From Candidatus Giovannonibacteria bacterium RIFOXYD1_FULL_48_21 (GTDB lineage: Bacteria; Patescibacteriota; Minisyncoccia; JACPKW01; UBA11713), in assembly GCA_001778985.1 (NCBI GenBank), contig MFIU01000001.1, forward strand, positions 1-50,110: 50,110 nt of DNA, given 5' to 3'. Numbering within the stretch: position 1 is the first letter of the stretch; every line of letters begins with the position of its first letter. A program made the translations under genes and the position numbers. Below, one piece after another: positions 11,036 through 38,068 of the stretch. The notes under the pieces were generated by a model. That model was not told where the DNA came from. It saw nothing but the letters and a program-made list of their open reading frames with translations, and did no database searches.

Positions 11036-11377
11036 ATGATAAAAATTAAAAAAGCCCTGCCGTATGCCTTGGTTGCGGCCGCGCCGTTTTTTGCCCTGGC
11101 ACAGACAGGACAAGCCGGCATTATCGTGGGACGAATCAGAAATCTTGTCAATCAAATAGTCCCCATTCTCCTGATTATAGGCACAGTCGTCTTTCTGTGG
11201 GGAGTGATTCTCTACCTCACGGCCGGAGCAGATGAGGAAAAGCGGGCCAACGCCAGAAGCTTGATGATTTACGGCCTGGTCGGACTTTTTGTGATGGTGG
11301 CGGTTTGGGGCATCGTGAAAGTATTGGTGAACTTCTTTGGAGTTGGAGGCGCAGGCGTTCCTACTGGTGTAATCTAG
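11036..11377 (+). CDS. VirB2/TrbC-like pilin-type small membrane protein
   Basis: Signal-like N-terminus; IVPILLIIGTVVFLWGVILYLTAGADEEKRANARSLMIYGLVGLFVMVAVWGIV. Confidence 0.75.
   Translation: MIKIKKALPYALVAAAPFFALAQTGQAGIIVGRIRNLVNQIVPILLIIGTVVFLWGVILYLTAGADEEKRANARSLMIYGLVGLFVMVAVWGIVKVLVNFFGVGGAGVPTGVI
11165..11319 (+). repeat. Tandem-gene conserved block; second copy at 11551-11705
   Basis: 155-bp blocks, one difference seen by eye (GGAGCAGATG/GGAGCGGATG). Confidence 0.9.
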
Positions 11378-11406
11378 TCATCTTACTAGTTAATCTTAAA
11401 CAAGAT

Positions 11407-11778
11407 ATGAAAACCCTCAAAAAAATACTTCCTTACGCTGTTGCGCTGACTATACCTATTCTTGTATTGGCTCAAGTCGTCACTCCTCTGCCTTCAGGAA
11501 CTCAAAGTATTGTTACCAACATAAAAAACCTGGTCAACAATGTCATCCCGATTCTCCTGATTATAGGCACAGTCGTCTTTCTGTGGGGAGTGATTCTCTA
11601 CCTCACGGCCGGAGCGGATGAGGAAAAGCGGGCCAACGCCAGAAGCTTGATGATTTACGGCCTGGTCGGACTTTTTGTGATGGTGGCGGTTTGGGGCATC
11701 GTGAACGTATTGGTTGGATTCTTCGGTATTACGGGTACGGGTATTCCTGAACGGCCTGGCGACATTCGGGAAATTTAG
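11407..11778 (+). CDS. VirB2/TrbC-like pilin-type small membrane protein
   Basis: Paralog of preceding gene; start chosen at MKTLKKILPY. Confidence 0.75.
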   Translation: MKTLKKILPYAVALTIPILVLAQVVTPLPSGTQSIVTNIKNLVNNVIPILLIIGTVVFLWGVILYLTAGADEEKRANARSLMIYGLVGLFVMVAVWGIVNVLVGFFGITGTGIPERPGDIREI

Positions 11779-11784
11779 AGCGGC

Positions 11785-12045
11785 ATGGTGGTCTATGCCA
11801 AGACCATTGAAGAGGTAATCGGGGTTGTCTCGAGCCAGATTCTAAGACCGATTGTTCTGCTTTTATTCGCGCTTGCCGCTGTCCTTTTCTTCTGGGGGGT
11901 TGTGGAGTTTATGTTAAACCGCGACAACGAAGAAGAAAGGGGCAAGGGCAAGCGCCATATGGTTTGGGGGCTGGTCGGACTTTTGATAATGTTCGCGGTA
12001 AACGGAATTCTCTGGCTTTTAGCAAATTTCGTAAGCTCAATATAA
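11785..12045 (+). CDS. VirB2/TrbC-like pilin-type small membrane protein
   Basis: Two TM helices; same RGKGKRHMVWGLVGL fold pattern. Confidence 0.65.
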   Translation: MVVYAKTIEEVIGVVSSQILRPIVLLLFALAAVLFFWGVVEFMLNRDNEEERGKGKRHMVWGLVGLLIMFAVNGILWLLANFVSSI

Positions 12046-12049
12046 ATTC

Positions 12050-12340
12050 ATGAGTTTGGAATTAATCATCGGCAGAATCACCACTCTTTTAAATTCGGTC
12101 CTGCCGATTTTGTTTTTGCTCGCCACCGTTGTTTTTCTCTGGGGCGTGATTTTATACATCACGGCCGGCGGCGATGAAGAAAAAAGAAAAGAGGGCCGAA
12201 ATTACATTATCTATGGTTTAATTGGTCTTTTCGTGATGGTAGCGGTTTGGGGAATCGTGAACGTTATGATTGGATTTTTCTTCCCGGGCGGTGCGCCCAT
12301 CACTCCTCCCCCCATACCTATAATTCCAGGCACCCCTTGA
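12050..12340 (+). CDS. VirB2/TrbC-like pilin-type small membrane protein
   Basis: VLPILFLLATVVFLWGVILYITAGGDEEKRKEGRNYIIYGLIGLFVMVAVWGIV. Confidence 0.75.
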   Translation: MSLELIIGRITTLLNSVLPILFLLATVVFLWGVILYITAGGDEEKRKEGRNYIIYGLIGLFVMVAVWGIVNVMIGFFFPGGAPITPPPIPIIPGTP

Positions 12341-12429
12341 AAAATTTTCTGAAATTCTCTCTCGGTTTTATCGCCATTTTAGTTCTGGCTTTGGCGATTT
12401 TTTACGCTCTGCAGTATCTTCAAGCTTGA
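12337..12429 (+). CDS. 30-aa single-TM microprotein, TTG start overlapping preceding stop (TTGA)
   Basis: LKNFLKFSLGFIAILVLALAIFYALQYLQA. Confidence 0.45.
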   Translation: MKNFLKFSLGFIAILVLALAIFYALQYLQA

Positions 12430-12465
12430 AGTGTTTACACTGAGCGAGCGTAGCGAGCCGAAGTG
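12430..12465. repeat. CTGAGC...CGAAGTGT repeat abutting tRNA 3' end
   Basis: AGTGTTTACACTGAGCGAGCGTAGCGAGCCGAAGTG; related copies at 12860-12883 and 38069-38129. Confidence 0.65.
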
Positions 12466-12507
12466 TGCGGGTAGGCGGAATTGAACCGCCGTCTCGTCCT
12501 TGGCAAG

Positions 12508-12726
12508 TCCCGCAAATTCTTGCGAGCAAAGCGAGTAATTGAATTTGCGAGGATCCCGTGATAATGAACGGAACAATTGATTATGTGTTTGAATTAAACA
12601 GTGCGAGCGGCGGGAGTTGAACCCGCGCCATCTGCTTGGCAAGCAGACGTACTGCCACTATACTACGCTCGCAAGAAAAACGGGATCCTCGAAAAATATA
12701 TTCGCTCCGCTCATTATTTTTCGGGA
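12508..12726. mobile_element. 219-bp inverted-repeat-bounded insert (TCCCG...CGGGA) carrying a complete tRNA-Gly
   Basis: Inverted copies of the CGGGATCCTCG-stem-CGCT(C/T)(C/T)GCTC-stem-CGGGA hairpin at 12508-12558 and 12681-12726. Confidence 0.65.
12602..12672 (-). tRNA. tRNA-Gly(GCC), complete, nested within the interrupted tRNA-Gly
   Basis: GCGAGCG/CGCTCGC acceptor; TCTGC-TTGCCAA-GCAGA; T-arm GCGGG-TTCAACT-CCCGC. Confidence 0.92.
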
Positions 12727-12771
12727 GACCATTCTGCCACTAAACCATACCCGCCTTTTTTAATTTTTTGG

Positions 12772-12855
12772 TGCCGAGGGGGAGATTTGAACTCCCATGT
12801 CCTTTCGGACGCTAGCTCCTAAAGCTAGTGTGTCTGCCAGTTCCACCACCTCGGC
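12772..12855 (-). tRNA. tRNA-Leu(TAG), CCA encoded
   Basis: CTAGC-TTTAGGA-GCTAG, long variable arm, GCCGAGG/CCTCGGC, ACCA. Confidence 0.93.
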
Positions 12856-12883
12856 GAATGTTTACGCTGAGCCAGTCGAAGTG

Positions 12884-12965
12884 TGGGCGAGGTGGGAGTT
12901 GAACCCACACGCCTTGCGGCACACGATCTTAAGTCGTGCGTGTCTGCCAGTTCCACCACTCGCCC
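12884..12965 (-). tRNA. tRNA-Leu(TAA)
   Basis: CACGA-CTTAAGA-TCGTG, long variable arm, GGGCGAG/CTCGCCC. Confidence 0.93.
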
Positions 12966-12977
12966 TCTCGCTTGGGG

Positions 12978-13049
12978 AGGCCTGGGAGGGAATTGAACCC
13001 TCGTATAAGGGATTTGCAGTCCCTTGCCTTACCACTTGGCTACCAGGCC
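12978..13049 (-). tRNA. tRNA-Cys(GCA)
   Basis: AGGGA-CTGCAAA-TCCCT; GGCCTGG/CCAGGCC. Confidence 0.93.
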
Positions 13050-13068
13050 GTTTCGGCAAAGCTACCAT

Positions 13069-13401
13069 TTATTTCGTTTTCTTCAAGAGGTCTTCGATTT
13101 TCAACCACTTCTTCTCGGATTCATCGAGCCGGAATTCCATCTCCGGCAAAAATTTGGTTTTGACTTTATCGGCCAAATGCAGTTTCAGCTCCGGCTTCAA
13201 ATTCTCTAAAGATTTTAGCACATTTTTCTCCTCTTGGTCAGGCCAAACCGAATAATATATCAGAAGGCGATCCAGCTTTTTGGAAAGCTCTGCCTTGGTT
13301 ACCACCGCGATGCCTTTTTCCGGCCTCAACTCTCTTTGCAGATAGGACGCGATTGTTTTTTGGTAGAGGGCGGCCAGTCTTTCCTGACGCCGGGAGTTCA
13401 T
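13069..13401 (-). CDS. rbfA: Ribosome-binding factor A
   Basis: Small KH-like protein immediately downstream of infB; N-terminal [25 protein letters not shown]. Confidence 0.75.
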   Translation of the reverse strand: MNSRRQERLAALYQKTIASYLQRELRPEKGIAVVTKAELSKKLDRLLIYYSVWPDQEEKNVLKSLENLKPELKLHLADKVKTKFLPEMEFRLDESEKKWLKIEDLLKKTK

Positions 13402-36658: not shown

Positions 36659-36884
36659 CTCTTCGCCTCCCTTCGTACAACAAATCTACGTAGAGCCTAG
36701 CAATGTAAAATTAAAGTTGCAAGATGTGGATAAATTTGTGCAGTATTCTTGAATTAGTCCGAACGCATTTCGGGAAAGAAATCCCCCCGCGAAAATTCGG
36801 AAAGGCGGCGGCTTGTACTGAGCGAAGTCGAAGTGAGCCGCACCGCTGACAATTTTCCCGCCACATATTTAAAATTTTAGAAAG

Positions 36885-36931
36885 CGGGATCCTCGATTTT
36901 GCAAATTCGCTTCGCTCATGCAAAATCGGGA
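36885..36931. repeat. CGGGATCCTCG-family hairpin repeat (solo copy)
   Basis: CGGGATCCTCG-ATTTTGCA-AATTCGCTTCGCTCA-TGCAAAAT-CGGGA. Confidence 0.7.
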
Positions 36932-36947
36932 CAAGTTTTTCTTTGGC

Positions 36948-37739
36948 TTATTGTATTATCTTTGACCTTTTTCTTCCAGTAAATATTCCAATTAATACTC
37001 CGACGAATGGAGGAAAAACAAATATCACAAAGAATATAATCCAGTATGGGATTACCACCCCCAACGAGTAAGCTAAGCGCACTCTAAGTTCATCAGCAAC
37101 GGCCCCGATGGTTCTAATATCAAAAATCTTTTTGTACTCATCTTGTAATCTTGGCGCAGGGGGTATTTCGCCGCGCTTTAAGAATTCCGCCTGTCGGTAA
37201 TCAGATAACACCGCTGACTCTGCGCATATAGCATCAACGAACTCTGATTGGGTAAATATTTTTACAGACGTCTCTGGATCCTTGCAATATCCTTTAACAT
37301 CGTTTTCACATTGTGCCTCCGAGCCATACGAAAGATTTAATCCGATCGTGTAACTTTCGCACGCAGAGCTAGTTCTCGATCCTAATAAATAAGGATCCGT
37401 CTTTAGTTCTGTGATGCTCTTAGTAGCACATTTGTCTTTGAGGATTTTAACTCTGTTGTAATAAAACTCTTCCTGAGATTTTTGGTATTTACTAAAATCC
37501 GTGAATCTATTCAGACTATTTCTGCTCATGGTTTCAATAGCGCAATCATAAGGGGACCCGCTATTATCTTTGCACTTTTTACACTCAAGAAATGTTTTAT
37601 ATAATGGAACATTTTGATCATACTGAGCCAAGGCGTAATCGTGTTGTCGTGGCGCATAGGAAAATAAGAAATAGGCGGCGTAAATGCCGATAGAAAATAG
37701 TATGCCGAAGAAGAAACTAATTGTTATATTCTTCTTCAT
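36948..37739 (-). CDS. Membrane protein with N- and C-terminal TM helices and Cys-rich loop
   Basis: ISFFFGILFSIGIYAAYFLF; GVVIPYWIIFFVIFVFPPFVGVLIGIFTG. Confidence 0.6.
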   Translation of the reverse strand: MKKNITISFFFGILFSIGIYAAYFLFSYAPRQHDYALAQYDQNVPLYKTFLECKKCKDNSGSPYDCAIETMSRNSLNRFTDFSKYQKSQEEFYYNRVKILKDKCATKSITELKTDPYLLGSRTSSACESYTIGLNLSYGSEAQCENDVKGYCKDPETSVKIFTQSEFVDAICAESAVLSDYRQAEFLKRGEIPPAPRLQDEYKKIFDIRTIGAVADELRVRLAYSLGVVIPYWIIFFVIFVFPPFVGVLIGIFTGRKRSKIIQ

Positions 37740-37769: not shown

Positions 37770-38024
37770 TTAAACCCATTCGCCTTTTATCAGTTTTTCT
37801 TTTTTGACTCGACTCCAGTGTTTAATTTGCGCTTCGCGTTTTCTGGCTTCGGATTTATTATACAGTGGCAGGGATTTATAAACAAGCGAGAATGGTCCTT
37901 GCTGTCTAGCCATCTGCGAACCCTTGCCTAAATTGTGTTTAATTATTCTTTGATCGGGGTCTGGTGTGATTCCAGTATAGTAATAACCACTTCCAGCTTT
38001 AGCGATATAAACATACCAATTCAT
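37770..38024 (-). CDS. GIY-YIG nuclease-domain protein
   Basis: MNWYVYIAKAGSGYYYTGITPDPDQRIIKHN...KSEARKREAQIKHWSR. Confidence 0.88.
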   Translation of the reverse strand: MNWYVYIAKAGSGYYYTGITPDPDQRIIKHNLGKGSQMARQQGPFSLVYKSLPLYNKSEARKREAQIKHWSRVKKEKLIKGEWV

Positions 38025-38068
38025 TTCTATATTGTAGCTCTTCGACAAACTCAGAGTACTTCGACTTG

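Follow-up and report, generated by a model that had tools for sequence, protein, structure and literature searches.

The three hairpins at 12508-12558, 12681-12726 and 36885-36931 of the window (the whole 50,110-nucleotide stretch of DNA analysed) raise the question of what kind of object changes both arms of its stem in step. The sequence-only reading had described copies whose arms differ yet stay complementary, had taken this as a sign that the hairpin itself is recognised or functional, and had regarded the third copy as a solo hairpin. All three sets of coordinates proved exact, and complementarity was confirmed in each copy:

12508-12558, minus strand: terminal hairpin, arms CAAATTC/GAATTTG (sequence, fold)
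12681-12726, plus strand: terminal hairpin, arms AAAAATA/TATTTTT, inverted relative to its partner (sequence, fold)
36885-36931, plus strand: the hairpin of the sequence-only reading, which is the right end of an empty element, arms ATTTTGCA/TGCAAAAT

The hairpin as the terminus of an insertion element

Exact CGGGATCCTCG sites in the source genome (714,428 bases, 5 contigs) were limited to these three copies, with none for the reversed-pattern control, and no exact copy had non-complementary arms (3/3 complementary). A variant element with centre CGAGGATCCTCG is present on contig C2 of the same genome. Across the class, the strict pattern CGGGATCCTCG-N(6-36)-CGGGA gave 41 matches in 29 of 383 genomes (reversed control, 1), and the 12 distinct arm pairs among these class-wide matches were 92% paired, compared with 48% after shuffling.

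A covariance model was built from 24 aligned copies whose loops had been trimmed to equal length. Pairing was found in 97.1% of the 240 cells (68.4% shuffled), both bases had changed in 63 cells (24.7 shuffled), and the covariation score was 0.628 (0.140 shuffled); each of these three values was reached in 0 of 500 shuffles. Arm covariation is strong and widespread, and the hairpin shape is therefore kept, which upholds the functional claim in part. The idea of an isolated hairpin motif as the object of recognition was not supported: the hairpins are termini of a precise insertion. Nor did the CGCTYYGCTC loop hold up as a family trait: it is common only locally, and loops elsewhere are completely different. 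Many copies run straight from CGGGA outward into half a tRNA gene, and CGGGATCCTCG-hairpin-CGGGA forms a terminus of an inserted element whose limits are TCCCG...CGGGA. The full form reads TCCCG-hairpin-CGAGGATCC(T/C)CG-hairpin-CGGGA, and cargo can occupy the loop of either hairpin.

A 219-bp element splits tRNA-Gly(GCC) and carries a tRNA of the same anticodon

The two inverted copies at the Gly locus do enclose a tRNA, as had been noted, but the split tRNA-Gly gene that surrounds them had been missed. The locus is organised as follows:

12508-12726, no strand assigned: complete tRNA-carrying element, 219 bp, TCCCG...CGGGA (rejoined flanks, uninterrupted orthologues)
12601-12672, minus strand: complete cargo tRNA-Gly(GCC) (ARAGORN; Rfam 72.7 bits; whole-genome tRNA inventory)
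12727-12754, minus strand: 5' part of the host tRNA-Gly(GCC), GCGGGTATGGTTTAGTGGCAGAATGGTC (sequence; orthologue identity of the rejoined host)
12467-12507, minus strand: 3' part of the host tRNA-Gly(GCC), CTTGCCAAGGACGAGACGGCGGTTCAATTCCGCCTACCCGC (sequence; orthologues in relatives)

Joining the flanks restores tRNA-Gly(GCC) across the junction with no base duplicated, and 12508-12726 is therefore one 219-bp insertion. It contains the tRNA and the two hairpins only, with no repeat at the junctions and no integrase. A search with the rejoined host tRNA returned an uninterrupted tRNA-Gly(GCC) from each of the six other genomes of the order (83-90% identity where aligned), and in one of them (G003) the intact gene belongs to the same Cys-Leu-Leu-Gly series that is seen in the window.

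The cargo is the sole complete tRNA-Gly(GCC) in a genome of 45 tRNA genes, one per anticodon except for Met, and in gene content and synteny it replaces the broken gene. Over their full length the host halves share 86-91% identity with the intact orthologues and the cargo only 70-74%: the replacement is foreign. Relative to its relatives the host half has lost one anticodon-stem base (GGTC for GCGTC), in keeping with a gene that is dead; processing of the split host tRNA is conceivable. The intact fold of the cargo and its position as the only copy left argue that it is functional.

Host and cargo anticodons agree across loci

To survey the other loci, the outer flanks of all 116 element ends were joined at every upstream TCCCG or TCCCA. 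A tRNA was restored across the junction at 17 of the 116 ends, compared with 20 of 2095 random joins; inverted pairs do preferentially bound tRNAs, a point that the sequence-only reading had proposed to check. Identical host and cargo anticodons were found at ten loci, each in a different genome and mostly in uncultured bacteria:

Gly-GCC: window
Gly-TCC: L014, L056, L151
Gly-CCC: L163
Ser-TGA: L009, L104
Ser-GCT: L064
Leu-TAG: L083
Thr-TGT: L175 (cargo tRNA in the other hairpin)

Because about 45 anticodons are possible, the probability of chance agreement at ten loci is negligible. The rejoined host tRNA of L056 also omits a nested short element. At L063 (Ala-TGC) host and cargo agree after a nested repeat is left out by hand, for which reason this locus stands outside the ten. 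The wobble base differs at L138 (host Ala-GGC, cargo Ala-TGC). At five further loci (L102, L123, L147, L079 and L156) the isotype agrees by eye without a clean call: ARAGORN returned no tRNA on the rejoined halves of L147 and L102, the 3' host half was looked for and not found at L079 and L123, and the rejoined host of L156 was called Trp(cca) and by eye is a Gly gene.

Element length was 155-242 bp where both ends are certain, and both orientations relative to the host gene were seen. The anticodon loop holds most of the junctions, many of them at TTC|CAAG or similar; D-loop junctions were found at L083 and for the nested element of L056. The tRNA junctions rejoin cleanly, and no target-site duplication was found. 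The frequency with which tRNA-Gly is struck may reflect the CTTC|CAAG carried by tRNA-Gly(UCC) anticodon loops. Synteny, empty sites and the anticodon match at ten loci together show that the element breaks and replaces tRNA genes.

At L056 (genome G078) a single tRNA-Gly gene has been hit twice: its D loop has received a short element (TTATG|GCATAA), its anticodon loop a tRNA-carrying one.

An empty form shows recent mobility in a WOR-3 genome

The third copy of the window is not a whole unit as first read. Its real start lies at 36856, with an extra hairpin TCCCGC...GCGGGA upstream, and it is an empty two-hairpin form of the same element:

36856-36931, plus strand: cargo-less 76-nt element (sequence; fold z -3.6; layout as in the 58-bp copies of WOR-3)
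36856-36861/36884-36889, plus strand: stem of hairpin 1, TCCCGC/GCGGGA; a TCC spacer follows, then hairpin 2 ending in CGGGA, with CAAG as the right flank

A homologue of the gene beside this copy was sought in the order and none was found.

Seven identical 58-bp copies occupy seven different sites of the WOR-3 genome JAGMEL01, with flanks YTC|CAAG, CTG|TAAT or close variants, which is evidence of recent mobility with a short target preference. The hallmarks of a MITE, namely near-identical copies at unrelated sites with conserved ends, are present in this genome. A scan of 84,980 species genomes, made with AT-rich arms, placed loci in the Parcubacteria group and in WOR-3/Stahlbacteria/TA06; a few loci, part of them perhaps due to chance, fell in Bacteroidota, Ignavibacteria and other groups. 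The pattern scan of the IMG/VR viral collection gave 0 matches, and a phage origin was rejected. No description of such elements was found in the open-access literature.

Elements in protein genes

The same element is found in protein genes. In tpiA of genomes G001 and G003 it breaks the first 26 nt of the gene, about 12 nt before the start of a complete tpiA, and the arrangement recurs at a CQNC zinc-ribbon gene in G001, G003 and G004. At fusA and tuf (names given from the encoded ends, read by eye) the complete gene comes first, and the element behind it splits a further copy of the gene's 3' end that is spelled differently. An Ignavibacteria kinase gene (L137) has its 90-nt start twice, recoded, one on each side of the element, as measured. 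A duplicated-flank test placed only 5 of 43 empty elements above the 99% control; gene-end rescue therefore holds at particular loci and not as a rule.

In another Ignavibacteria locus (L149), an element in the start of a Ser/Thr kinase-like gene is followed by a recoded copy of that start, judged by eye.

Candidates for the enzyme that moves the element

A tRNA-Glu(CTC) gene of the source genome is split by a larger element (L055, G000:C2, about 59,380-59,945). Its first hairpin loop encodes an 85-aa GIY-YIG protein (PF01541, E 1.8e-18), and the gene overlaps a complete tRNA-Glu(CTC), the sole one in the tRNA inventory. GIY-YIG genes lie inside inserted DNA at two loci, this one and L205. In G004 a GIY-YIG gene sits within the first hairpin of the CQNC-gene element; the CQNC sites of G001 and G003 hold an element free of it. 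At L188, L061 and two L154 loci the element interrupts a partial tRNA copy, with a GIY-YIG gene and the full tRNA downstream.

The 5' remnant of the L055 locus contains a further variant double hairpin, with centre GAGGACTCTCG. The two L154 loci (Crocinitomicaceae, Bacteroidota, JABURP010000102) concern Gly-GCC and Leu-TAA; in both, the partial tRNA with its element comes first, then GIY-YIG, then the complete tRNA.

Within the order, 19 of the 29 small GIY-YIG genes examined end between -41 and +64 nt from the start of a same-strand tRNA, and a repeat of the tRNA 5' part is often found upstream of the GIY-YIG genes. Of the 26 top-scoring GIY-YIG genes from the class outside this order, only 3 adjoin a tRNA; the association is therefore not generalisable and is a trait of part of the GIY-YIG family. 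Most element copies, both window copies included, lack a nuclease gene, and no GIY-YIG gene was seen near the WOR-3 copies except for a partial match at L166. Ordinary transposition would account for seven identical copies at unrelated sites more readily than allelic homing. On gene arrangement, the best candidate for the mover is a GIY-YIG nuclease, whether in cis or in trans.

In the source genome, GIY-YIG genes also stand directly before tRNA-Trp, Tyr, Ser and Ala (L051, L038, L053 and L042, G000); at several of these loci part of the tRNA 5' end is repeated upstream, and other GC-rich double hairpins break into that repeat.

The principal competitor has a RAYT/IS200-type Y1 (HUH) transposase moving an ordinary MITE- or REP-like palindrome, whose tRNA would have been captured by chance and kept by selection. 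The hairpin ends, the exact insertion without duplication, the short target preference and the identical high-copy forms of WOR-3 would all fit, and Y1_Tnp genes occur in 7/7 genomes of the order, four of them in the source genome. Yet none of the 24 Y1_Tnp genes in these seven genomes is flanked by GGATCC-centred hairpins, and those of the source genome have other palindromes. As a rule, IS200/IS605-type Y1 enzymes move elements whose ends are non-symmetric and lie on the same strand, with a fixed tetranucleotide bordering one of them; the symmetric ends seen here do not resemble these. A Y1 origin is accordingly considered unlikely, and a RAYT/REP link, with the element at 0/24 Y1 genes, was set aside as unsupported.

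The Y1 (RAYT-like) genes at L259-L262 (G000) are flanked by palindromes of their own, AATGTTTGCCAG and GAAGTCCGACTTCGATAG, which form a separate hairpin family.

Comparison with known systems

Like REP/BIME-RAYT sequences and MITEs, the element is small and hairpin-ended, inserts exactly and reaches high copy number in some genomes. It differs from them in carrying a replacement for the target that it breaks, in the lack of a Y1 link, in the sequence of its ends and in its symmetric layout; classical MITEs differ further, in that the element makes no target-site duplication. Rickettsia palindromic elements are small palindromes inside conserved genes that are tolerated in frame in the product; here, by contrast, the target is broken and replaced.

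Short unexplained non-intron insertions, often <200 bp, are known at the tops or bases of stem-loops in CPR rRNA genes, and some of them carry GIY-YIG (PMC11270868). They share with the element the CPR hosts, the short non-intron character, the stem-loop sites and an occasional GIY-YIG gene; they differ in sitting in rRNA and are not known to have these ends or to carry replacements. Such insertions lend some plausibility to a reading in which the split tRNA is still functional, the element being removed from the RNA like an intron or intervening sequence and the inner tRNA being an extra gene. The anticodon- and D-loop sites resemble tRNA intron positions, and the TCCCG and CGGGA ends can pair and so bring the halves together. 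This reading is nevertheless highly improbable: the element occurs in both orientations relative to the host gene, Rfam gives no group I or II intron match, the host halves are decaying (the base loss in the window; the 3' half not found at L079 and L123), and cargo of the same isotype throughout would be pointless. A group I or II intron was rejected, as no Rfam intron family reached E<=1 at 12300-13100 or 36700-37100 in either orientation.

The nearest known principle is tRNA-dependent lysogeny of mycobacteriophages, in which a temperate phage breaks a tRNA gene and carries one of the same isotype, using a tyrosine integrase and a common core of ~10 bp (PMC10865867). As in such integrative elements, insertion here disrupts the host tRNA gene (flanks that rejoin, intact orthologues), and the cargo appears to be a replacement isoacceptor (ten same-anticodon loci, the sole Gly-GCC). 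The differences are the size of 155-242 bp, the hairpin ends, the lack of an integrase and of a common core, and the existence of empty forms and of protein-gene versions. That the element is the scar of a larger tRNA-targeting integrative element with a tyrosine integrase, reduced to its ends and its tRNA, shares this logic of breaking a tRNA and supplying its isotype (PMC10865867) but is likewise very improbable: the element keeps to 155-242 bp across loci and genomes that are unrelated. Further arguments against it are the symmetric hairpin ends, the lack of an att-like core repeat at the two junctions, the empty 58-76-bp forms that multiply by themselves and the 0 matches in IMG/VR.

Free-standing GIY-YIG homing endonucleases of the phage T4 Seg family, such as SegB, reportedly spread by cut and repair, which can drag neighbouring genes along (PMC13096335). 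A GIY-YIG gene with spread by cut and repair is what is proposed for the element; the element differs in being bounded by a GGATCC-centred double hairpin and in lying inside the target gene together with a duplicate of the gene or gene end.

A proposed explanation and its implications

The hairpins are thus very probably the ends of a very small mobile element that breaks and replaces tRNA genes, with a GIY-YIG enzyme as its presumed engine. The element inserts exactly, without target duplication, at short sites like TTC|CAAG that occur in anticodon and D loops. Where an essential single-copy tRNA gene is hit, only copies that supply the same isoacceptor would leave a viable cell. A GIY-YIG endonuclease, supplied by a complete copy or in trans, would cut the conserved gene, and repair of the cut would install the element together with the replacement; copies that lack the nuclease gene, among them both in the window, would be passive. 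The identity of the mover and the expression of the cargo tRNA are the parts of this scheme that we infer from sequence.

A more ambitious version is offered tentatively, as a possibility that we would not favour over its negation: GIY-YIG elements may act as a break-and-rescue drive, cutting essential genes, inserting the double-hairpin plug and supplying a recoded, cut-proof replacement on which the host becomes dependent. Its targets would be tRNAs, fusA, tuf, tpiA and a kinase, the replacement being a whole tRNA or the end of the broken gene. If this is true, the host would depend on a selfish element for essential genes.

To our knowledge, the element would be by far the smallest mobile DNA to disrupt an essential gene while supplying a substitute for it. 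It would show how single-copy tRNA genes can undergo xenologous replacement in bacteria with tiny genomes, may account for the pieces of tRNA genes scattered through CPR assemblies, and suggests what some of the numerous small GIY-YIG proteins in these genomes may do. The logic of breaking and substituting has already been described for temperate phages (PMC10865867) and is also that of engineered gene drives.

Two further features of the window were recorded. A GIY-YIG ORF on the minus strand at 37770-38048 (PF01541, 48 bits) lies just downstream of tRNA-Phe and adjoins the gene neighbouring the solo element, which is not the usual position before a tRNA. A 228-nt segment occurs three times at 11135-12304; the copies have diverged (to 88% and 63% identity with the first) and form a run of small paralogous ORFs.
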